DNA of 64,000 nt from Achromobacter xylosoxidans (GTDB lineage: Bacteria > Pseudomonadota > Gammaproteobacteria > Burkholderiales > Burkholderiaceae_B): the NCBI RefSeq assembly GCF_001457475.1, contig NZ_LN831029.1, positions 2,852,001 to 2,916,000 on the forward strand, written 5' to 3'. Below are positions 45,405-56,540 of the stretch, piece after piece (position 1 is the first letter of the stretch; every line of letters starts with the position of its first letter). The position numbers were made by a program, and so were the translations under genes. The notes beneath the pieces were generated by a model. The model was not told the DNA's origin. It searched no databases and saw only the letters and a list, made by a program, of their open reading frames with translations.

Positions 45405-46358
45405 TCAGCGCGCGTCGGCGGCGGCCGCGGCCAACGCGCGGCCGCGCCGCCATTCCACCAGCCCGATGCCGATGCCGCTGGCGCAGATGATGGCGATGCC
45501 GAGCCAGGTCAGGGGATCCGGGAAGTGGTCCCATACCAGCCAGCCGACCGTGGTGGCGCTGATGATCTGCAGGTAGATGAAGGGCGCCAGGGTCGAGGCC
45601 GGCGCGCGGCGGTAGGCCGCGATCTGGAACAGGTGGCCCAGGCCGCCCGTGACGCCGGTGGAGATCAGCAGGGTCCAGTCCAGCGGCGTCAGCGCCTGCA
45701 GCACCGGCAGCGCCGGGGGCAGGATGAAGGGCAGGGCCAGCGTCAGACAGCCGGTGCCCACGGCGCCGCTCCAGATCAGCGAGGTGAACGGATCGTCGCC
45801 CGCGACGCGGCGCGTGGCGATGAACTGGGCCGCGAAGCAACAGGCCGTCAGCAGGCCGAAAATGGTGCCGACCGGATGCAGGCCGCCGCCCGGGCGGATG
45901 ACGATGATGACGCCGACGAAGGCGATGCCCGCGGCCACGAAGCGCGACATGCGCGCCGGCTCCTTCAGGATCCACGGCGCCAGCGACAGCACCAGCAAGG
46001 GCGCCAGGAAATTGATGGCGGTGGCCTCGGCCTGGGGAATGTAGCTGAGCGTGGTGAAGAACATCAGCGTGGCCAGGAACATCGAGCCGCCGCGCAGGAT
46101 CTGTTCGCGGGGCTTTTTGCTGCGCAGGATGCCGGTTCCGCGCGTGGGCAGCACCAGCGCCAGCACCAGCACCAGGTGCACCGCGTAGCGGAACCACGAC
46201 AGCACCAGTAGCGGCACCCCGGCGTTCATGACCCACTTGCCACTGGCGTCCAGGCACGACAGCGTCCACATCGACAGCACCAGCAGCAGGATCCCGACGA
46301 GCGGGCCGCTGGCGGCGGGCGCGCCGGGGCGCGGGCGACCGGTATCGGCCGGGGACAT
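45405..46358 (-). CDS. EamA/DMT-family exporter
   Basis: The 317-residue protein has two EamA repeats of five helices each. Marks are [23 protein letters not shown] in the first half and [18 protein letters not shown] in the second. Members export amino acids and other metabolites; the substrate is unknown. It is divergent from the LysR gene at 46446, with 87 bases between. Confidence 0.87.
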
Positions 46359-46445
46359 GGACGGACTCCTTGTGCGCGATCAATCCCGGGCGGGGGCCAC
46401 GGGGCGGCTGACATGATACGCTCATCGCGGCAGGGGGAAAGGTTC

Positions 46446-47354
46446 ATGATCGAACTACGCAACATAGAAACATTCTTTTGGGTCGCCACGCTGGGCAGCT
46501 TCCGCGCCGCGTCCGACAAGCTCAACACCACGCAGCCGGCGGTCTCGCAACGCATCGCCTCGCTCGAGGCCGATCTGGGCGTGCGACTGTTCGAGCGTGA
46601 CGCCCGCGGCGTCAAGCTGACCGCCAAGGGCCATGAACTGCTGTCGCACGCCGAACGCATGCTGCAGGTGCGGCGCGACATGTTCGAGGCCGCGCGCGAG
46701 CAGAACGTGATGACGGGCACGGTGCGCATCGGCGTGGCCGAGACCATCGTGCAGACCTGGCTGCCGACGCTGATCGAGCTGGTGCACGCCGCGTATCCGG
46801 CGCTGGTGCTGGAGATCGAGGTGGACACCACCCATGTGCTGCGCTCGCACCTGATGTCGCGCCAGATCGACCTGGCCTTCCTGATGGGGCCGGTGCTGGA
46901 AGCGCGGGTCGAGAACCTGCCGCTGTGCACTTATCCGCTGGCCTGGGTCGCCAGCCCGCTGCTGGAACTGGGCCCCGAGCCCTTGACGCTGGAGCGCATC
47001 GGCCGCCTGCCGATCGTCACCTATCCGTCCAACAGCGCGCCATACCGCGTGGTGCGCGACATGCTGACGCGCGCCGGCGTGGCGTCGCCGCGCATGTACG
47101 GCAGCGCCTCGATGTCGATGGTGGTGCGGATGACGCAGGACTGCATCGGGACTAGCGTGATCGCGCCGGTGTTCCTGGGCAAGGAACTGGCGCGCGGCGA
47201 ACTGCGCATCCTGCAAGTCGACGCCGATCCACTGCCCGAATTGAGTTTCACGGCCACCTGGGTGCAGGGGCCGGACAGCCACGCGGCGCGGCTGATCGCG
47301 CAGATGGCGCAGAAAGTGGCCGCGCAGGCGGGCGACGGCGTGGCGTCGTCCTAG
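46446..47354 (+). CDS. LysR-family regulator, paralog 1
   Basis: The 302-residue protein has the winged helix FRAASDKLNTTQPAVSQRI and a co-inducer domain ending GPDSHAARL. It is clearly a paralog of the product of 53097-54008: long blocks such as [11 protein letters not shown] and [10 protein letters not shown] are the same and overall identity is more than half by eye. It precedes a TRAP-transporter operon in the same direction, with a 436-base spacer containing the shared 23-base element at 47605. It is also divergent from the EamA exporter, a second possible target. The ATG follows AGGGGGAAAG. Confidence 0.88.
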   Translation: MIELRNIETFFWVATLGSFRAASDKLNTTQPAVSQRIASLEADLGVRLFERDARGVKLTAKGHELLSHAERMLQVRRDMFEAAREQNVMTGTVRIGVAETIVQTWLPTLIELVHAAYPALVLEIEVDTTHVLRSHLMSRQIDLAFLMGPVLEARVENLPLCTYPLAWVASPLLELGPEPLTLERIGRLPIVTYPSNSAPYRVVRDMLTRAGVASPRMYGSASMSMVVRMTQDCIGTSVIAPVFLGKELARGELRILQVDADPLPELSFTATWVQGPDSHAARLIAQMAQKVAAQAGDGVASS

Positions 47355-47790
47355 CGCCTGTTCGCGCGAAAGGAAGCCGCGCGCGGCCCCCCGGGCCGCG
47401 CCGGCAACGGCGCGCATCATGATCCGCCGCGGCGCGCGCGCCTAGGTGTTTTCCCCAGCGCCAGGCGCGCGGGCGGTCATGCGAAGCGCTCGCGGCGCGC
47501 CAGCGTCCGACCCCGCGATCCCGCGCCAGGCCGCATGGTTGCTGGCTCTGCGCCCGGCGCCGGGCGGCCGGCCGGCGAGACCAAAGAAATATTTATACCC
47601 CCACATCGCAACATACGATTGGACGCTCGGCGCCCCTGACGCTGCAATGGCGGCACATCAAGAAGATCGCCTGGAAAGACAGGCCCGGGGGAAAACCTTT
47701 GCTCCTCTGACGTTCCGATTTCTACCCGCGCGCTCAAGGTAACGGGGACCCGCGCGCGCCAGACCATCCCGCCAGCCAGGAGTTTCGTCC
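47355..47790 (+). other. Promoter region of the TRAP operon
   Basis: This 436-base region has no credible gene (short ORFs lack coding bias or a ribosome-binding site). It holds a GC-rich hairpin after the LysR stop, an AT-rich patch (about 47585-47600) and the shared 23-base element at 47605-47627. Confidence 0.6.
47605..47627 (+). promoter_or_regulatory. Shared 23-base element, copy 1 (putative LysR site)
   Basis: ATCGCAACAT, two variable bases, GATT, one purine and GACGCT match the copy at 54032 in 20 of 23 positions. The first 15 bases form a dyad ATCG-N7-CGAT with T-N11-A spacing, the classic LysR motif. It is preceded by an AT-rich stretch. Confidence 0.6.
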
Positions 47791-48837
47791 ATGAAGAAGT
47801 CGCTCGCTCTCGCCGCCGTCGCCGCCAGCCTGTTGGCCGGCGCCGCCCAGGCGCAAGACCTGCCCAAGACCCACCTCAAGGTGGTGGGCGGCCTGTCCAA
47901 CCTGACCGCCTACAACGATTACGAAAAGCCGTTCTGGACCAAGACCATTCCGGAAGCGTCCAAGGGCCAGGTCACCGCGGACATCAAGGGCTTCAACGAA
48001 ATGGGCCTGAAGGGCCCGGAACTGCTGCGCCTGATGTCGACCGGCGTGGTCGAGTTCGGCACCGCCACGCTGTCGTACTTCGCCAGCGACAACCCGATCA
48101 ACGAAGCCATCGACCTGGCCGGCCTGGCGCCGGACGTGAAGACGGCGCGCGAGGTGACCAACGCCTTCGAGCCGGTCTACGCGCGCCTGTACGGCGAGGG
48201 CAGCAACGTCAAGCTGCTGGGCATCTCCACCTATCCGGCGCAGGTGCTGTTCTGCAACGCCGAGATCAAGGGCCTGGCCGACATCAAGGGCAAGAAGGTC
48301 CGCACCAGCAGCCGCACCACCGCCGAATTCGTGGAAGCGCTGGGCGGCTCCAGCGTCACCATGGCGTTCGGCGAAGTGGTGCCGGCGCTGCAGAACAAGG
48401 TGGTCGATTGCGCCATCACCGGCTCGCTGTCGGGCTACTCGGCCAAGTGGTACGAAGTGTCGACCCACCTGGTGGCGCTGCCGATCAACTGGAACCAGCA
48501 GATCCACGCCGTTAACCAGAAGGCCTGGGACAAGCTCGACCCCAACGTGCGCACCTTCCTGCAGGCCAACGTCAAGACGCTGGTCGACAACATCTGGGAC
48601 GCCGCGGCGCGCCAGACCCAGGAAGGCTATGACTGCAACACCGGCGCGGCGGCGTGCCCGTTCCCGGTCAAGGGCAAGATGGTGCTGGTGCAGCCTTCGG
48701 ACGCCGACCGCGAACTGCTCAAGAAGGTGACGCAGGAAGCCGTGCTGCCCAAGTGGGCCGCGCGTTGCTCGGCGCAGTGCGTCAAGGACTTCAACGCCAC
48801 CGTCGGCAAGACGCTGGGCGTGACCGCCAGCAAGTAA
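47791..48837 (+). CDS. dctP: TRAP transporter periplasmic binding protein
   Basis: The 348-residue protein has a signal peptide (cleavage near AQA-Q at 22-23) and the DctP fold: LRLMSTGVVEFGTATLSYFASDNP, KGKKVRTSSRTTAEFVEALGGSSVTM and EVVPALQNKVVDCAI. It captures a (usually carboxylate) solute in the periplasm. A VKGK/CNTG...CPFPVK region near the C-terminus has a Cys pair, perhaps a disulfide. It is first in dctP-dctQ-dctM, 10 bases before dctQ. Confidence 0.9.
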   Translation: MKKSLALAAVAASLLAGAAQAQDLPKTHLKVVGGLSNLTAYNDYEKPFWTKTIPEASKGQVTADIKGFNEMGLKGPELLRLMSTGVVEFGTATLSYFASDNPINEAIDLAGLAPDVKTAREVTNAFEPVYARLYGEGSNVKLLGISTYPAQVLFCNAEIKGLADIKGKKVRTSSRTTAEFVEALGGSSVTMAFGEVVPALQNKVVDCAITGSLSGYSAKWYEVSTHLVALPINWNQQIHAVNQKAWDKLDPNVRTFLQANVKTLVDNIWDAAARQTQEGYDCNTGAAACPFPVKGKMVLVQPSDADRELLKKVTQEAVLPKWAARCSAQCVKDFNATVGKTLGVTASK

Positions 48838-48847
48838 GGCTGTCCCC

Positions 48848-49468
48848 ATGACCCGATCCGAACATTTCCGCCTGCTGGGCGGGTTGCTGCGGCGCGCCGA
48901 GACCTTCTCGCGCGTCGCGGTATGGGCGGGCGGCGCGCTGACCATCGCCAGCGTGCTGCTCATTTCCTTCGACGTGCTGGCCCGCAAGTTCCTCGGCTTT
49001 ACCACCGGCGGCGCCGACGAACTGTCCAGCTACGCCTTCGCCATCAGCACCTCCTGGGCGCTGGCCTTCGCCACGCTGCAGCGCGCCAACGTGCGGGTGG
49101 ACGTGCTGTACCAGAAGCTGCCGGTGCGCCTGTCGGCCGTGCTCGACTGGGTTTCCATGGTGGCGCTGGCCGTCTTCATGGTGTTCCTGACCTATTACGC
49201 CTATGAAGTGGTGCAGATGTCGTGGGCGCAGAAGTCCGCCGCCAACACGCCGCTGGCCACGCCGTTGTGGATTCCGCAGGGCCTGTGGCTGCTCGGCCTG
49301 GCGTGGATGTGCGTCACGGTGGCCTTGATGCTGGCGCGCGCCTCGGCCGCGCTGGTGACCGGCGACATCGAACTGGTCAAGGAAATCTGCGGCGTGCGTT
49401 CCGCGCAGGAAGAGGCCGACGAGGAAGCCGCCGCCGGCGAGCGCATGGTCAAGGGAGCCGCCGCATGA
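48848..49468 (+). CDS. dctQ: TRAP transporter small membrane subunit
   Basis: The 206-residue protein is a four-helix membrane protein of the DctQ class (about residues 20-45, 55-75, 95-120 and 140-165). The usual Arg-Lys residues of the second helix are seen in FDVLARKFLG. It forms the transport complex with DctM. It overlaps dctM by 4 bases (ATGA). Confidence 0.85.
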   Translation: MTRSEHFRLLGGLLRRAETFSRVAVWAGGALTIASVLLISFDVLARKFLGFTTGGADELSSYAFAISTSWALAFATLQRANVRVDVLYQKLPVRLSAVLDWVSMVALAVFMVFLTYYAYEVVQMSWAQKSAANTPLATPLWIPQGLWLLGLAWMCVTVALMLARASAALVTGDIELVKEICGVRSAQEEADEEAAAGERMVKGAAA

Positions 49469-50748
49469 TCGCCACCGCATTGACCCTGCTGCTGGTCCTG
49501 ATCGGCCTGTCGATCCCCGTGGGCGCGGCCCTCGGGGTGCTGGGCCTGATCCTGGACCCGATGTTCTCGATGCTGCCGCTGTCGCGCGCGATCGGCGAGA
49601 TCTCCTGGAGCACCAATAACGAGTTCCTCCTGGTCGCCATTCCGCTGTTCATCATGCTGGGCGAGGTGCTGCTGCGGGCCGGCTTCGCCGAGCGCATGTA
49701 CGGCGCCATGAGCCTGTGGCTGTCGTGGCTGCCGGGCGGCCTGATGCACGCCAACATCGGCGCCTCGACGCTGTTCTCGGCCACCTCCGGTTCCAGCGTC
49801 GCCACCGCCGCCACGGTTGGCACGGTGGCGATTCCGCAGATCCGCAAGTACGGCTACAACGAGCCGCTGTTCCTGGGCAGCCTGGCCGCCGGCGGCACGC
49901 TCGGCATCCTGATCCCGCCCTCGATCAACCTGGTCATCTACGGCGTGCTGACCAATTCGTCCGTGCCCAAGCTGTACCTGGCCGGCATCATCCCGGGCTT
50001 CGCCATGGCGGCGTTGTTCATGCTGACGGTGATGATCGCCTGCGTGGCCAAGCCGTCCTGGGGCGGCAAGAAGATCCAGGCCACCTGGGGCCAGCGTTTC
50101 GCCAGCCTGGTGCACCTGGCGCCGCCGATGGGCATCTTCCTGCTGGTGGTGGGTTCGATCTACGCCGGCCTGGCCACGCCGACCGAGGCCGCCGCGCTGG
50201 GCGTGCTGGGCGCGCTGATCCTGGCCGCCTGGTTCCGCCGCCTGACCTGGACCATGCTGCGCGAAGCCATGGAAGGCACCATGCGCTCGACCGCCATGAT
50301 CATGCTGATCGTGGTGGCCGCCAGCTTCCTGAACTTCGTCATGTCGGCCACCGGCCTGACCGACGCGCTGACCCAGTCCATCACCGGGTTGGGTCTGTCG
50401 CCGGGCTGGATGCTGCTGATCGTGATCGTGTTCTACCTGGTGCTGGGCTGCTTCATGGAGACCCTGTCGATGATGATCACGACCATCCCGATCGTCGCGC
50501 CGATCATGATCGCGCTGGGCTACGACCCGATCTGGCTGGGCATCATCATCATCATCCTGGTCGAGGCCGCGCTCATCACGCCGCCGGTCGGACTGAACCT
50601 GTTCGTGGTGCAGAGCCTGCGCAAGAGCGGCTCGATGAGCGCCGTGATCACCGGCAGCCTGCCGTTCGTGCTGGCGATGTTCGTGATGCTGGCGCTGCTG
50701 GCATGGTGGCCCGACCTGGCCTTGTGGCTGCCGCGGGTGTTCGGCTAG
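49465..50748 (+). CDS. dctM: TRAP transporter large membrane subunit
   Basis: The 427-residue protein has about 12 predicted helices. DctM marks are GASTLFSATSGSSVATAATVGTVAIPQI, GGTLGILIPPSINLVIYG and ALITPPVGLNLFVV. It uses the Na+ gradient to import the solute delivered by DctP. Its start lies inside the dctQ end. Together the three genes form a complete transporter. Confidence 0.92.
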   Translation: MIATALTLLLVLIGLSIPVGAALGVLGLILDPMFSMLPLSRAIGEISWSTNNEFLLVAIPLFIMLGEVLLRAGFAERMYGAMSLWLSWLPGGLMHANIGASTLFSATSGSSVATAATVGTVAIPQIRKYGYNEPLFLGSLAAGGTLGILIPPSINLVIYGVLTNSSVPKLYLAGIIPGFAMAALFMLTVMIACVAKPSWGGKKIQATWGQRFASLVHLAPPMGIFLLVVGSIYAGLATPTEAAALGVLGALILAAWFRRLTWTMLREAMEGTMRSTAMIMLIVVAASFLNFVMSATGLTDALTQSITGLGLSPGWMLLIVIVFYLVLGCFMETLSMMITTIPIVAPIMIALGYDPIWLGIIIIILVEAALITPPVGLNLFVVQSLRKSGSMSAVITGSLPFVLAMFVMLALLAWWPDLALWLPRVFG

Positions 50749-50763
50749 CCCCTGTATCCCTTC

Positions 50764-50787
50764 GGGCACGGCCGCGCGGCCGTGCCC
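50764..50787 (+). terminator. Perfect hairpin after dctM
   Basis: GGGCACGGCC and its complement flank GCGC, followed by ATTCTTTCCC. The T run is weak; it may reduce rather than stop transcription into the next gene 33 bases later. Confidence 0.5.
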
Positions 50788-50819
50788 ATTCTTTCCCGTT
50801 TACCTCCGCAGGACTTTTC

Positions 50820-51503
50820 ATGAAAGCCGTATTCCAGATCGAAGCCGATTCCCCCCGCCAGGTCGAGGTGGACTTCAATACCCTCATCGTGGCCGGCTGG
50901 GCCGGGCGCGACATCGCCGCCATCGAGCACCACATCGAGGAACTGGCCGCCATCGGCGTGCCGCGTCCCACCAGCGTGCCGCTGTACTACCGCATCGCCG
51001 ACAACCAGTTGACCCAGGCCGAACGGGTGCAGGCGGTGGGCGGCGATTCGTCCGGCGAGGTCGAGACCTTCGTGTTCGCGGCCGGCGGCGAAATGTTCGT
51101 AAGCATTGCCTCGGACCACACCGACCGCAAGCTGGAGACGGTCAGCGTGGCCATGTCCAAGCAGGTCTGCGTCAAGCCGGTGGCGACCACGGCCTGGCGC
51201 CTGGCCGACGTGGCCGACTACTGGGACGAGCTGGTGATCCGTTCGTACATCGTCGAGAACGGCGCCGAGGTGCTGTACCAGGAAGGCCCGCTGGCCTCGC
51301 TGCGCACGCCGCAGGACTTGATCGCCGGCTACACCGGCGGGGCCGCGACGCTGCCGGAAGGCGCGGGCATGACCTGCGGCACGGTCGGCGCCATCGGCGG
51401 CATCCGCCCGTCGGCCGGATTCGCCATGGAGCTGTACGATCCGCGCCGCCAACGCAGCCTGCGCCACCGGTATCATGTCGAGATCCTGCCGGTGGTGGCC
51501 TGA
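50820..51503 (+). CDS. DUF2848 family protein
   Basis: The 227-residue cytoplasmic protein belongs to the DUF2848 family, whose members are found in catabolic operons. Its fold resembles the fumarylacetoacetate-hydrolase group in pattern (GYTGGAATLPEGAGMTCGTVG and FAMELYDP near the C-terminus), so hydrolysis or decarboxylation of a short acid is a reasonable guess. A TAxxVQAVG-like segment and SKQVCVKPVAT are conserved-looking. AGGA precedes the ATG. It follows the TRAP genes and leads to the amidase. Confidence 0.75.
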   Translation: MKAVFQIEADSPRQVEVDFNTLIVAGWAGRDIAAIEHHIEELAAIGVPRPTSVPLYYRIADNQLTQAERVQAVGGDSSGEVETFVFAAGGEMFVSIASDHTDRKLETVSVAMSKQVCVKPVATTAWRLADVADYWDELVIRSYIVENGAEVLYQEGPLASLRTPQDLIAGYTGGAATLPEGAGMTCGTVGAIGGIRPSAGFAMELYDPRRQRSLRHRYHVEILPVVA

Positions 51504-51594
51504 GGCCCGGCTGGCGTCCTGATTTGTCATGACGCGCCCCGTTGGGGCGCGCCGGTCCAACACTTTCATGCCGTGACGCGGCACCTGGAATCGT

Positions 51595-52941
51595 ATGTAT
51601 CCGACCTTGAACGACCTGACCGCCGCCTTGAACGACGGTCGCAGCACCTCCGTTGAACTGACCGAAGCCGCGCTGGCCCGCGCCGGCGATCCGGCCGGCG
51701 AGGGCGCCCGCGCCTTCACCCGGCTGTATGCCGAATCGGCCATGGCCCAGGCCCGCGCCTCGGACACGCTGCGCGCCGCCGGCATCGTGCGCTCGGCCAT
51801 CGAGGGCCTGCCGATCAGCATCAAGGACCTGTTCGACATCGAGGGCGAGACCACCATGGCCGGCTCGGTGGCGCGCGAGGGCGAACCCGCCGCCGACGCC
51901 AACGCCGAAGTGGTGCAGCGCCTGATCGCCGCCGGCGCGGTCATCATCGGCCGCACCAACATGACCGAATTCGCCTATTCGGGCCTGGGCATCAATCCCC
52001 ATTACGGCACGCCGCTGAATCCCTGGGATCGCGCCACCGGCCGCATTCCCGGCGGCTCGTCCTCCGGCGCGGCGGTGTCGGTGGCCGACGGCATGGCCGT
52101 GGCCGGCATCGGCTCGGACACCGGCGGCTCGGTGCGCATTCCCGCCGCGCTGTGCGGCCTGACCGGCTTCAAACCCAGCGCCTGGCGCGTCTCGATGGAA
52201 GGCGTGCTGCCGCTGTCGGCCAACCTGGACTCCATCGGCCCGATCGCCGCCAGCGTGCGCTGCTGCGCCGAACTGGACGCGATCCTGTCGGGCGAGGGCG
52301 GCCCGGTGCCCGAGGCGCTGCCGCTGCGCGGCCTGCGCCTGGCGGTGCCCAGGACGCTGGCGCTGGACGGCATGGACAAGCACGTGTCCGACACCTTCGC
52401 CCGCGCCGTGGCGCGCCTGAAGGAAGCCGGCGCCCTGGTCGACGAGATCGCCATTCCGGAATTCGCCGAACTGGCCAACATCAATGCCAAGGGCGGCTTC
52501 ACCGCAGCCGAGGCCTGGGCCTGGCACCGCGACCTGATCGCGCGCGCCGGCAAGCGCTACGATCCGCGCGTGGTGTCGCGCATTCTGCGCGGCAAGGACA
52601 TGAGCGCCGCCGACTATCTGGACCTGCTGGATGCGCGCGAAGCCTGGGTGGCCGCGGTCGACCGCCGCATCGCCGGCTACGACGCCCTGATCATGCCGAC
52701 GACGCCGATCGTGGCGCCGGCGGTGGCGGATCTGCAAGCCTCGGACGAAGCCTATTACGCCGCCAACGGCCTGATCCTGCGCAATCCCACCCTGATCAAT
52801 TTCCTGGATGGCTGCGCGCTGTCGCTGCCGTGCCATGCCGCGGGCACCGCGCCGGTCGGCCTGATGATCGCCGCCAGCAATGGCGCCGACCGCCGCGTGC
52901 TGGCGATCGGCCTGGCGGTCGAGGAATTGCTCGCCGCTTGA
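51595..52941 (+). CDS. Amidase-signature amidohydrolase
   Basis: The 448-residue enzyme has the amidase-signature triad: Lys77 in ISIKDLFD, cis-Ser155 in PGGSSSG and nucleophile Ser179 in DTGGSVRIPA. It hydrolyses an amide to acid and ammonia in the cytoplasm; the substrate is unknown. Its place after a TRAP importer and a DUF2848 protein suggests that the imported compound carries an amide bond. The start is the ATG at 51595 with a short leader after the preceding gene. Confidence 0.9.
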   Translation: MYPTLNDLTAALNDGRSTSVELTEAALARAGDPAGEGARAFTRLYAESAMAQARASDTLRAAGIVRSAIEGLPISIKDLFDIEGETTMAGSVAREGEPAADANAEVVQRLIAAGAVIIGRTNMTEFAYSGLGINPHYGTPLNPWDRATGRIPGGSSSGAAVSVADGMAVAGIGSDTGGSVRIPAALCGLTGFKPSAWRVSMEGVLPLSANLDSIGPIAASVRCCAELDAILSGEGGPVPEALPLRGLRLAVPRTLALDGMDKHVSDTFARAVARLKEAGALVDEIAIPEFAELANINAKGGFTAAEAWAWHRDLIARAGKRYDPRVVSRILRGKDMSAADYLDLLDAREAWVAAVDRRIAGYDALIMPTTPIVAPAVADLQASDEAYYAANGLILRNPTLINFLDGCALSLPCHAAGTAPVGLMIAASNGADRRVLAIGLAVEELLAA

Positions 52942-53096
52942 ACCGGCGCCGGGGCCGCGTTGCGTCGCGGCCCACGCTTTCCCGCCGTCCCACGGTGCGG
53001 GCGGGCAGGGCGGTGTTTTCCGCCATATCGGCATTGTCCTTCCGACGCTAACATGGCGACGGGACAGGCCGCGCAACGGGGCAGGATTTGGGCGCC

Positions 53097-54008
53097 ATGA
53101 TAGATCTGCGCAATATCGAGACGTTTTTCTGGGTGGCCACGCTGGGCGGCTTTCGCGCCGCGGCCGAAAAACTCAACGCTACCCAGCCGGCGATTTCCCA
53201 GCGCATCGCGTCGCTGGAGTCCGACCTGGGCATCCGCCTGTTCGACCGCGACGTGCGCGGCATCAAGCTGACCGGCAAGGGCCGCGAGCTGCTGTCGCAT
53301 GCCGAGCGCATGCTGCAGCTGCGGCGCGACATGCAGGAGGCGGCCCGCGCCAAGAGCGTGATGAGCGGCACCCTGCGGCTGGGCGTGTCCGAGACCATCG
53401 TCCACACCTGGCTGCCGACGCTGATGGAGTACCTGCACGACGCCTACCCGGCGCTGATGGTCGAGATCCAGGTCGACACCACCACCATGCTCAAGACCCA
53501 GCTGGCCTCGCGCCAGATCGACCTGGCGTTCCTGCTGGGGCCGATGGAAGAGCCGCGCATCGAAAACCTGTACCTGTGCAATTACCCGCTCAGCTGGGTC
53601 GCCAGCCCCAAGCTCAAGGTGGGGCGCCAGCCCATCAGCCTGAAGCGGCTGGGGCAATGGCCGGTGATCACCTATTCGTCCACCACCGATCCGCACCGCG
53701 CGGTGCGGCAGGTGCTGCAGCAGGCCGGCGTCGACGCGCCGCGCATGTACGGCAGTTCGGCGCTGAGCGTGATCGTGCGGATGGCGCTGGACGGCATCGG
53801 CACGGCGGTGATCGCGCCCGTCATCCTGCATAAGGAGCTGGCGCAGGGCGAATTGCGGCTGCTCGACGTGAAGGCGCCGCCGCTGCCGCCGCTGCACTAC
53901 ACCGCCTGCTGGATGCAGGGGCCGGACAGCCAGGTGCCGCGCACCGTGGCCGAGGCCGCGCAGCAGATTGCGCGCGAAGAAGCGCTGCGCCATCCGGCAA
54001 AACCCTGA
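53097..54008 (+). CDS. LysR-family regulator, paralog 2
   Basis: The 303-residue protein is highly similar to the LysR at 46446: [26 protein letters not shown] and [10 protein letters not shown] are near-identical, as is TWLPTL and DLAFLLGP in the effector domain. It is followed 101 bases later by the DUF1445 gene in the same direction; the spacer has the second copy of the 23-base element. A local duplication from its paralog, or the reverse, is the simplest origin. It may control its own neighbour and perhaps both operons. Confidence 0.88.
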
Positions 54009-54031
54009 TAAGGAATTCTGATCGGGGTCTA

Positions 54032-54054
54032 TCGCAACATGTGATTAGACGCTG
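54032..54054 (+). promoter_or_regulatory. Shared 23-base element, copy 2 (putative LysR site)
   Basis: It matches the element at 47605 in 20 of 23 positions and lies 55 bases before the start of the DUF1445 gene. Here the dyad is ATCG-N7-TGAT, one base short of perfect, with the same T-N11-A spacing. Confidence 0.6.
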
Positions 54055-54109
54055 CGGCCGAGTTCCTGTGCAATGTCCCCATACCAACATCGATGCAAGG
54101 GGAATTGAC

Positions 54110-54916
54110 ATGGCACTGGATTCGGCGGTCCGCAGCAGCGTGGAACTGGCGCGCCGCGCGCGGCTCGATGCCCGCAGCGGCAAGCTGGCCGGCCCCACCG
54201 CCAACCTGGCCCCGGGCCATGTGCAGGCCAACCTGGCGATCCTGCCGCGCGCCCTGGCGGCCGATTTCCTGCATTTCTGCCAGCGCAATCCCAAGCCGTG
54301 CCCCTTGCTGGCCATGTCCGAGCCGGGCGATCCGGCGTTGCCCGAGCTGGGCCACGATATCGACATCCGCAGCGACATCCCGCGTTATCGCGTCTGGCAG
54401 AACGGCGAGCTGGTGGCCGAACCCACCGACGTGCGCGACTGGTGGCGCGACGACCTGGTGTCGTTCCTGATCGGCTGCTCGTTCTCGTTCGAGGAAGCAA
54501 TGCTCGACAACGGCCTGCCGGTGCGCCACATCGAACAGGGCTGCAACGTGCCGATGTACCGCACCAGCATCCCGACCCATGCCGCCGGCGTGTTCGGCGG
54601 TCCGCTGGTGGTGTCGATGCGGCCGCTGAAGGCCGCCGACGCCATCCGCGCCATCCAGGTGACTTCGCGTTTTCCCTCGGTCCATGGCGCGCCGGTGCAC
54701 CTGGGCGACCCGGCATTGATCGGGATTGCCGACATCAACCGGCCGGATTATGGTGATCCCGTGGAGATCCGTCCGGGCGAAATGCCGGTGTTCTGGGCCT
54801 GCGGCGTCACGCCGCAGTCGGTGGTGGCCGCGGTGCGCCCCGACTTCTGCATCACGCACGCGCCCGGCCACATGCTGGTCACGGATCTCGTCAACAGCCG
54901 CATGGCGATCCTGTAG
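54110..54916 (+). CDS. DUF1445 hydro-lyase / D-glutamate cyclase-like
   Basis: The 268-residue protein is of the DUF1445 (UPF0317, YcsI) family. Characteristic blocks are [41 protein letters not shown] and FWACGVTPQ with [11 protein letters not shown] at the end. A eukaryotic relative converts D-glutamate to 5-oxo-D-proline, and bacterial genes often lie near 5-oxoprolinase; here the neighbour is an amidase group. Its start follows AGGGGAAT. It is probably monocistronic. Confidence 0.85.
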
Positions 54917-55289
54917 TCGCCATCGGTAGTCGCCACCGGCCATTCTCAGTCAACCGTCAGCGGAAAACCGCTAGAAACAGGAATCGCATCGATCAGGAAT
55001 CAGCCGTACCTGGCGTCCTTGTGACGTCCCCATGACGCGCTCGCGGTGTCCTCGTGGCACCCTCATGGCACCCTCATGGCGCCTGTCATGGCGTATCCGC
55101 AGCTTTGGTTTTGCCTCCAGAAAGATCCATGAAAGGACAAGGGGAAAAGGCGACAGAAGTTTCAGGCCCAGCGCCTGCCGGCATGCCGGCGGGACGGGGC
55201 CGCCGCAGGCCCGGATCCGCCGGGCCCGGGGCCGCGCGCCCCGTGGATTGCATTGCTTTCACAGTGGGATTTTTTCCAGGAGTCAGGTA
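54917..55289 (+). other. Upstream region of the Liv operon with tandem repeats
   Basis: This 373-base gap has no gene I can support. It contains an 11-base tandem repeat at 55050-55093 and a GC-rich part before the binding-protein gene. Confidence 0.55.
55050..55093 (+). repeat. 11-base tandem repeats
   Basis: CCTCGTGGCAC, CCTCATGGCAC and CCTCATGGCG follow one another, with a fourth, longer unit CCTGTCATGGCG. One repeat per helical turn could place a regulator on one face of the DNA, or it may be a replication-slippage product. Confidence 0.6.
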
Positions 55290-56540
55290 ATGAAGATGAA
55301 GCTCATTGCGGGTGTCGCCGCGAGTCTGGCGCTGTTGGCCGCCGCGCCGACGCAGGCGCAGGTCAAGACCGTGAAGATCGGCGCGATCTATCCCCTGTCC
55401 GGCGCGCTGGCGTCCACCGGCGCCGAGATCAAGGCCGCGGTGGAATTGGCCGTGGACATCGTCAATAACCCGCATCCCGAACTCGAAGGGATCCCGCTGG
55501 CCGCGGGCGCCGGCCTGCCGGCGCTGGGCGGGGCCAAGATCGAAGTGGTGTTCGGCGATTCGCAGGGCAAGCCCGAAGTGGGCCTGGCCGACGCGCAGCG
55601 CCTGATCGACCAGGAGAAAGTGGTGGCCCTGACCGGCGCCTACCAATCGGCCGTCACCAAGACCGCCAGCCGCATCGCCGAGCAGCGCGGCATTCCCTAC
55701 CTGAATGGCGAGTCCAGCAGCCCGGACCTGACCGAGCGCGGCTACAAGTGGTTCTTCCGCACCTCGCCCAACGACGACACCTTCGTCGAGAACATGATGC
55801 AGTTCCTGGACGGCGTGAAGGGCACGCCGACCGCCAAGATCGCGGTGGTCTACGAGAACACCGACTTTGGCGTCAACACCTACAAGGCGGTCGAGAAGTT
55901 CGCCAAGCAGTACAAGCGCCAGGTGGTGGCCAACATCGCCTACAGCGCCGGCTCGGCCTCGGTGACGGCCGAAGTGCAGAAGCTGGCCGCCGCCAAGCCG
56001 GACGTGGCGATCTTCGCCAGCTACACCTCGGACGCCATGCTGTTCGTGCGCACCATGCGCGAAAGCAAGTACGCCCCGCCGGTGCTGCTGGCCAATGACG
56101 CCGGCTTCATCGACTCGCGCTTCGTGCAGGAAGTGGGCCCGCAGGTGCAGGGCGTGCTGACGCGCGACGTCTGGGGCAACGACGTGGCCGCCGCCAAGGC
56201 CGGCCTGAAGAAGATCAACGACATGTACAAGGCCAAGACCGGCAAGGACCTGAACGGCAATAACGCCCGTTCGATGCAGGGCGTGCTGGTGCTGGCCGAC
56301 GCCATCAACCGCGCCGGCTCCACCGATCCGGAAGCGATCCGCAAGGCGCTGGCGGCCACCGACCTGGGCGAGGCGCAAGTGGCCATGCCCTGGGCCGGCG
56401 TGAAGTTCGACGACAAGGGCCAGAACACCAAGGGTTCCGGCCTGATCCTGGAACTGAAGGGTTCGTCCTACCAGACGGTATGGCCGGAAAAGTACCGCAC
56501 CGACAAGACGCTGCCCACGCTGCCGTTCTCCTGGAAGTAA
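55290..56540 (+). CDS. Branched-chain amino acid-type ABC binding protein
   Basis: The 416-residue periplasmic protein has a signal peptide (cleavage near AQA-Q at 23-24) and the LivK-like fold: VKIGAIYPLSGALASTGAEIKAAVELAVD, LTGAYQSAVTKTASRIAEQRGIPYLNGES and FVRTMRESKYAPPVLLANDAGF. These proteins bind amino acids, amides or aromatic acids; Achromobacter-type genomes carry many copies. AGGAGTCAGG precedes the ATG. Four Liv genes follow. Confidence 0.88.
   Translation: MKMKLIAGVAASLALLAAAPTQAQVKTVKIGAIYPLSGALASTGAEIKAAVELAVDIVNNPHPELEGIPLAAGAGLPALGGAKIEVVFGDSQGKPEVGLADAQRLIDQEKVVALTGAYQSAVTKTASRIAEQRGIPYLNGESSSPDLTERGYKWFFRTSPNDDTFVENMMQFLDGVKGTPTAKIAVVYENTDFGVNTYKAVEKFAKQYKRQVVANIAYSAGSASVTAEVQKLAAAKPDVAIFASYTSDAMLFVRTMRESKYAPPVLLANDAGFIDSRFVQEVGPQVQGVLTRDVWGNDVAAAKAGLKKINDMYKAKTGKDLNGNNARSMQGVLVLADAINRAGSTDPEAIRKALAATDLGEAQVAMPWAGVKFDDKGQNTKGSGLILELKGSSYQTVWPEKYRTDKTLPTLPFSWK

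Follow-up and report, generated by a model that had tools for sequence, protein, structure and literature searches.

In a 64,000-nucleotide stretch of Achromobacter xylosoxidans DNA (contig NZ_LN831029.1, positions 2,852,001 to 2,916,000; hereafter the window, numbered from its first base), part of a 6.8-Mb genome in a single contig, two similar genes for LysR-type transcriptional regulators (LTTRs), here LTTR1 and LTTR2, are each followed by a nearly identical 23-base element. What is this element, and do the two regulators share it? The original prediction, made from the letters of the window, was that a regulator-plus-operator module had been duplicated and that a single co-inducer could control both units through cross-binding paralogs. 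We consider it probable (roughly 0.8) that the locus holds two orthodox LTTR-activated promoters of the sigma-70 type, arranged head to tail and each chiefly under the control of the paralog encoded immediately upstream. The feature is real, well conserved and of a known regulatory kind, and looks like the familiar LTTR promoter switch.

The paired elements and their regulators

The regulator genes at 46446 and 53097 are paralogs, as had been claimed: their products share 193 of 292 aligned residues (66%), and the next best genomic LTTR match by E-value, among 150 scored, reaches 34%. Both proteins carry an N-terminal HTH_1 and a C-terminal LysR_substrate domain above the Pfam cut-offs (the scan of LTTR2 began at its fourth residue), which places them among the LysR-type regulators. 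The element copies, 6.4 kb apart, agree in 20 of 23 bases. The prediction was right on this agreement, on a T-N11-A dyad in both copies (T47606/A47618 and T54032/A54044) and on the position of each copy 3′ of its LysR gene, ahead of dctP or of the DUF1445 gene, and was one base off for the second copy, which lies at 54031–54053 and not at 54032–54054. No other 23-mers match better between the two intergenic regions, and 60 first-order Markov resamples of intergenic pairs reached at most 17/23, with a mean of 14.4. The flanks are 27–37% identical (upstream 21/70 and 9/30, downstream 4/15 and 21/57), and a TGCAAT stands at equal distance 3′ of both copies, identical in 6 of 6 bases. The promoter features of the two units are as follows.

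47581–47597, + strand: unit 1 upstream, recognition-type LTTR subsite, AAA-N7-TTA, predicted centre about -66
47605–47627, + strand: unit 1 element, putative promoter-proximal, activation-type subsite that has T-N11-A and extends into the -35 box
47619–47624, + strand: unit 1 -35-like TTGGAC, identical in 54 of 54 LTTR1-type sites
47643–47648, + strand: unit 1 -10-like TGCAAT, 18 bp after TTGGAC, predicted +1 near 47655
54007–54023, + strand: unit 2 upstream LTTR subsite, GATAA-N7-TGATC, T-N11-A at 54009/54021, predicted centre about -66
54031–54053, + strand: unit 2 element, putative promoter-proximal subsite
54045–54050, + strand: unit 2 -35-like TTAGAC
54069–54074, + strand: unit 2 -10-like TGCAAT, 18 bp after TTAGAC, predicted +1 near 54081

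Proposed promoter architecture

Judged by its letters, the 23-base element is a proximal LTTR subsite plus a -35 box, which the upstream subsite and the -10 hexamer complete to a putative operator-promoter. The prediction that it is a regulator site is borne out in that it behaves as a site tied to this LTTR family, and needs amending in that it is only the promoter-proximal part, with the -35 box, of something larger. A search of genome contigs found 63 loci with an LTTR1 match, and 79 sites were compared, 77 of them at 58 of the 63 loci (recognized by the core at ≤2 mismatches) and two from the window. The consensus of the proximal subsite, ATCG.AACaT.YGATTRGAC, merges into the -35 box, and TGNAAT follows the core by 18, 19 and 20 nt in 60, 17 and 1 of the 79 sites, L058 having no TGNAAT. 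The motif YAA-N7-TNA recurs at one register (-22/-21) in 71 sites, 48 of these with T, against a background of 0–2 in 18 other 8-nt bins and 11 in one bin inside the core. The upstream subsite sits 23 bp from the proximal one; that of unit 1 reads CAA/TAA-N7-TTA in most relatives and AAA-N7-TTA in the window, and that of unit 2 shares 2 nt with the LTTR2 stop codon. Conservation across sites peaks on the upstream subsite, core and -10 blocks; because sites were picked by the core, its conservation is partly due to that selection, from which the upstream subsite and the -10 are free, and many sites come from close species, so that the counts are not independent.

With the -10 hexamer set by convention at -12 to -7, the subsites centre at about -66 (upstream) and about -41 (the proximal dyad), and the core T-N11-A merges into TTRGAC 18–20 bp from TGNAAT in 78 of the 79 sites, which on sequence grounds alone gives a putative activation subsite that adjoins or overlaps the -35 box. 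The predicted geometry is the classic LTTR layout and matches the rule of subsites at -65 and -35 given in the portion of PMC11602165 available to us. It likewise resembles canonical LTTR promoters such as those of AccR (PMC11602165) and YhaJ (PMC11739112), as far as the accessible parts of these papers describe them, in having two subsites. The layout of upstream subsite, core and -10 extends from Achromobacter and Bordetella to Bosea and relatives. Among the loci negative for the core, L049, L050 and L065 have by eye a variant at the equivalent place; the core at ≤2 mismatches was not found in L081, a divergent Hahella pair whose AT-rich dyads are not interpretable, or in L082, a fragment. 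One Bosea locus (L061:10086-11280) has an open frame of about 399 codons, peptidase-like by eye, between operator and dctP.

Rarity of the site and its link to the regulators

Occurrence of the element at many unrelated loci, which would have counted against the prediction, was looked for in the genome and in relatives and was not seen. An IUPAC 22-mer, built from the two window copies and thus fitted to them, matched twice in the window at ≤3 mismatches against 0.01 expected, and three times in the whole genome: the window's two at 0 mismatches and one at 3 (G000:C1:5574329-5574350), ahead of an open reading frame (ORF) that is kynureninase-like by eye. Across 61 genomes the exact 15-base core occurs 0–2 times per genome, with a match in 36, and the reversed control gave 0; a large regulon was rejected on these counts. 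Single exact-core matches in G048 and G050 belong to other genera of the order.

At ≤1 mismatch a 20-base pattern gave 82 matches in 43 Achromobacter genomes (reversed control 2), 67 linked to an LTTR and 15 elsewhere. All 64 exact matches are LTTR-linked sites, one or two per genome, and the 15 others all carry one mismatch, nine of them being one recurring sequence. This relative of the element, ATACCAATCTTTGATTRGAC, lies away from LTTR units in nine Achromobacter genomes (e.g. G004:C9:4971-4990). LTTR1 is present in 42 of the 43 genomes and its linked site in 42 of 42, and the second site is present in all 25 genomes with LTTR2, starting 25 nt past the end of the aligned LTTR2 match, which in 13 of the 25 runs over a TAA near its end. 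A weaker 18-base pattern at ≤3 mismatches had 17 genomic matches, the window's two included, and its reversed control 2; this excess is not taken for enrichment, since the control has a different dinucleotide make-up. Two of the weak 18-base matches, at 703298 and 5570490, have other LysR genes nearby. The dctP upstream region, used as query against plasmids, found no match.

Divergence of the two regulators and their sites

LTTR1 and LTTR2 are identical at 52 of 65 residues in the DNA-binding part, with a near-identical recognition helix, and at 122 of 202 in the effector domains, a difference that speaks for an overlap in DNA binding and for effectors that differ in part, as with BenM and CatM (discussed below). 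At base 12 the element has C in all 54 LTTR1-type sites, two sites of a further Bordetella petrii paralog included, and T in all 25 LTTR2 sites, and the upstream subsites also differ between the two promoters. Residue 28 of the regulators, two residues before QP, is A in LTTR2, and LTTR1 and the B. petrii paralog have T there, with >90% agreement within each of the two main clades; we take QP to open the recognition helix. The covariation of residue 28 with base 12 amounts to one or two evolutionary events and is accordingly a lead rather than proof. Of the 18 clade-diagnostic residues, 14 are outside the DNA-binding part, among them 103, 197, 200, 221, 222, 225 and 226. Cross-binding and a shared co-inducer are plausible, the similar sites and the paralog-specific bases pointing in opposite directions.

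Gene layout and proposed regulation

All genes of the two units lie on the same strand and head to tail, LTTR1-dctP-dctQ-dctM-DUF2848-amidase followed by LTTR2-DUF1445 and the binding protein of an ATP-binding cassette (ABC) transporter; dctPQM encode a tripartite ATP-independent periplasmic (TRAP) transporter.

46446–47354, + strand: LTTR1, LysR-type regulator with HTH_1 and LysR_substrate domains
47791–48837, + strand: dctP, TRAP solute-binding protein
48848–49468, + strand: dctQ
49465–50748, + strand: dctM
50764–50787, + strand: terminator-like hairpin between dctM and DUF2848, 10-bp stem, then ATTCTTTCCC
50820–51503, + strand: DUF2848 protein, predicted start, frame open further upstream (searches used 50841–51500 as query)
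51595–52941, + strand: amidase (Amidase family, NF005460)
52952–52973, + strand: G+C-rich hairpin directly 3′ of the amidase stop, 8-bp stem, without a strong T run
53097–54008, + strand: LTTR2, LysR-type regulator, paralog of LTTR1
54110–54916, + strand: DUF1445 / D-Glu_cyclase family protein, putative hydro-lyase
55290–56540, + strand: Liv-type ABC substrate-binding protein
after the binding protein, up to 59843: ABC permease and ATPase ORFs, named by eye

By analogy with known LTTRs, a tetramer of each regulator would occupy the two subsites 3′ of its gene and, with co-inducer bound, would help polymerase at the weak -10; TGCAAT is a poor hexamer, so that an activator would be needed. LTTR1 would then drive dctPQM, and probably DUF2848 and the amidase also, and LTTR2 would drive DUF1445 and the ABC transporter, the co-inducer perhaps being 5-oxoproline or a related amide. 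The terminator scan reported six terminator-like sites in the region, 50764–50787 among them, against 4.0 expected by chance; unit 1 transcription may end or thin out at that hairpin. The hairpin at 52952–52973, absent from the scan output, is a possible end of unit 1. A -10-like TAA[GC]AT lies 33–54 nt before LTTR2 in 15 of the 18 loci with both genes (53049–53054 in the window) and is possibly LTTR2's own promoter.

Several observations weigh against two LTTR-activated promoters divided in this way. A generic promoter scan of 46250–55400 returned no promoter, because the -10 is poor. The motif YAA-N7-TNA fails in 8 of the 79 sites, unit 1 of the window among them, where the upstream subsite is A-N11-A with no T in its left half, that of unit 2 being T-N11-A (start sites are predicted in both). 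The hairpin after dctM makes it questionable that DUF2848 and the amidase belong to the dctPQM transcript, and read-through from unit 1 could still reach DUF1445. Neither LTTR gene is preceded by a copy of the element at ≤3 mismatches, and both genes are codirectional with their targets, so that neither forms a divergent pair. A divergent gene pair with a shared regulatory region is common but not obligatory among LysR-type regulators, and its absence, being the absence of a merely common trait, leaves the LysR-type assignment intact. Of the two subsites the promoter-proximal one is the more conserved, and in the part of PMC11739112 that we could consult the recognition site is the high-affinity one; in this, and in the lack of a divergent pair, the promoters differ from those of AccR and YhaJ, again within what the accessible text of their descriptions covers.

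Distribution and history

Synteny over the 63 loci falls into three main states. The order LTTR1-dctPQM-DUF2848-amidase-DUF1445 is found in Bordetella, in Bosea and other Rhizobiales, in Schauerella, in A. aestuarii (L050) and in ten further Achromobacter loci, with variants in that some Rhizobiales loci show no amidase or DUF2848 match and some Bordetella loci no DUF1445 match (L042 and L068 are short contigs). LTTR2-DUF1445-ABC stands alone in L072–L078 (B. hinzii and relatives, A. aloeverae and others). In the window and at 17 Achromobacter loci the two units adjoin head to tail, one of these loci, L032, being without an ABC match. The window's LTTR1 is 100% (rounded) identical to that of Achromobacter dolens. 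Two B. petrii loci, L051 (6023-8900) and L059 (6041-8900), hold, beside the LTTR1 unit, a third LTTR paralog (62–63%) that has an element and a DUF1445 of its own and a dctP-like gene. In Bordetella genomosp. 13 (L048:18636-18882) the stretch compared ends in a partial LTTR2 match (89%) several kb past the amidase, so that a looser pairing exists there.

Quick trees, scored by the SH-like approximate likelihood ratio test (SH-aLRT) only and with long outgroup branches and a weak root, separated an LTTR2 clade of 25 rows (SH-aLRT 99) from an LTTR1 clade of 55 rows (98), with the B. petrii paralog outside both. Matches below about 750 bp (LTTR) or 600 bp (DUF1445) were left out, including the partial LTTR2 of L048 and the L082 fragment. 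DUF1445 has a single match in the whole genome, and in its tree the main Achromobacter group, with or without LTTR2, falls into one weakly supported group (29 rows, 85). The duplication appears to be old, the paralogs having split before the Achromobacter species, since other species carry one module without the other and the two regulators fall into separate clades; of the predicted duplicated module it holds that regulator and site travel together, and not that the duplication was local or recent. LTTR2 is inherited together with its downstream ABC transporter: the ABC binding protein is present in 24 of 25 Achromobacter genomes with LTTR2 (the exception is G066) and in 0 of 18 without, two of the 18 being incomplete.

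Where LTTR2 is lacking, the amidase and DUF1445 are 10–58 nt apart in ten Achromobacter loci, 20 nt in L049 and L050 and 26–120 nt in the others measured (28 rows, one locus twice), and in the window LTTR2 and its promoter stand between them. It is conceivable, if rather doubtful, that in LTTR2-bearing Achromobacter the single-copy DUF1445 was handed from the regulator of the TRAP operon to the paralog, a regulator-promoter module coming between DUF1445 and the amidase; the modules would then be partly cross-wired, one metabolite family would open both TRAP and ABC uptake, and residue 28 (T/A), matched by base 12 (C/T), would set their insulation. In L040:15480-17500 the amidase tail and DUF1445 occur twice, with identical DUF1445 and N between, probably an assembly artefact. 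In G018:C1:1297270-1300552 a distance of only about 2.3 kb separates the LTTR1 site from the LTTR2 gene; part of dctPQM-DUF2848-amidase therefore seems to be missing, although both regulators and sites are kept.

Alternative explanations

The two units could form one regulon, LTTR1 and LTTR2 binding both sites freely and one co-inducer switching both. The close match of the element copies, and of the DNA-binding parts with their near-identical recognition helix, is what such a regulon would leave, and there is precedent in the overlapping targets of the paralogs BenM and CatM, described in the part of PMC6628147 seen. Yet base 12 is fixed by paralog, the upstream subsites differ, most clade-diagnostic residues lie outside the DNA-binding part and the transporters are of different types, TRAP and ABC; we regard free sharing as possible but on balance improbable. 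Alternatively the units could be coupled by relay, transcription from the LTTR1 promoter continuing past the amidase into LTTR2, whose level would rise with LTTR1 activity and which would in turn switch on DUF1445 and the ABC transporter. The common strand allows for this, as do an amidase-LTTR2 gap of only 47–48 nt in L029, L033 and L043 and a terminator scan without a match in that gap of the window, but read-through would have to pass the G+C-rich hairpin 3′ of the window's amidase, and the TAA[GC]AT before LTTR2 hints at a promoter of its own. The hairpin after dctM led us to lower our estimate slightly, and a relay now seems unlikely.

If the element were no more than a conserved core promoter, or belonged to some other regulator and had nothing to do with the LysR proteins, the overlap of its most conserved bases with the -35 box would be explained. 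Such a reading is very improbable: from Achromobacter to Bosea the element goes with this LTTR family, in the genomes searched it is otherwise rare, the upstream subsite is likewise conserved, and base 12 varies with the paralog. A recent copying of the stretch by local duplication or gene conversion, which two similar genes and elements 6.4 kb apart might suggest, was rejected: it is contradicted by flanks of such low identity and by the separate clades and single-module relatives, and has next to no chance of being correct. We give as little credence to an RNA element (leader or attenuator), also rejected; the conserved block is intergenic and on the sense strand, but 46000–56000 had no Rfam match at gathering scores, and the blocks are spaced as in a promoter and precede the predicted start.

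Relation to known systems and candidate substrates

The closest comparison is with BenM and CatM of Acinetobacter baylyi, for which overlapping targets and an effector-driven shift onto the activation subsite have been shown, according to the portion of PMC6628147 at hand. As there, the present regulators are LTTR paralogs with similar multi-subsite operators containing T-N11-A, target overlap and effector shift being carried over to them by analogy only. They differ in being codirectional with their targets, with the operator 3′ of the regulator gene, and in that the targets are transport and amide/D-Glu_cyclase-family genes. LTTR1 alone, LTTR2 alone, the third paralog of B. petrii and the adjoined pair form a natural series of one regulator family with its operators, from Achromobacter to Bosea, which makes divergence in LTTR DNA specificity and the sharing of promoters testable.

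The uncharacterized DUF2848, amidase and DUF1445 genes gain a proposed regulon and a place to seek their substrate. A literature search on DUF2848 found no paper, one on DUF1445, TRAP and LysR turned up DUF1445 in none of the 20 papers listed out of 26, and one on D-glutamate cyclase with bacteria and 5-oxoproline found none. Pyroglutamate-binding TRAP receptors of Bordetella pertussis are described in PMC5812351 and mentioned in PMC13274462, as far as the parts seen of these sources go. DctP has as its second and third best PDB sequence matches 2pfz and 2pfy, both distant (E about 1e-17 and 5e-15). We take these two structures to be the B. pertussis receptors, to which DctP is thus only a distant sequence match. 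Together with the Pfam name of the DUF1445 family, D-Glu_cyclase, these matches offer a weak hint as to the substrate.

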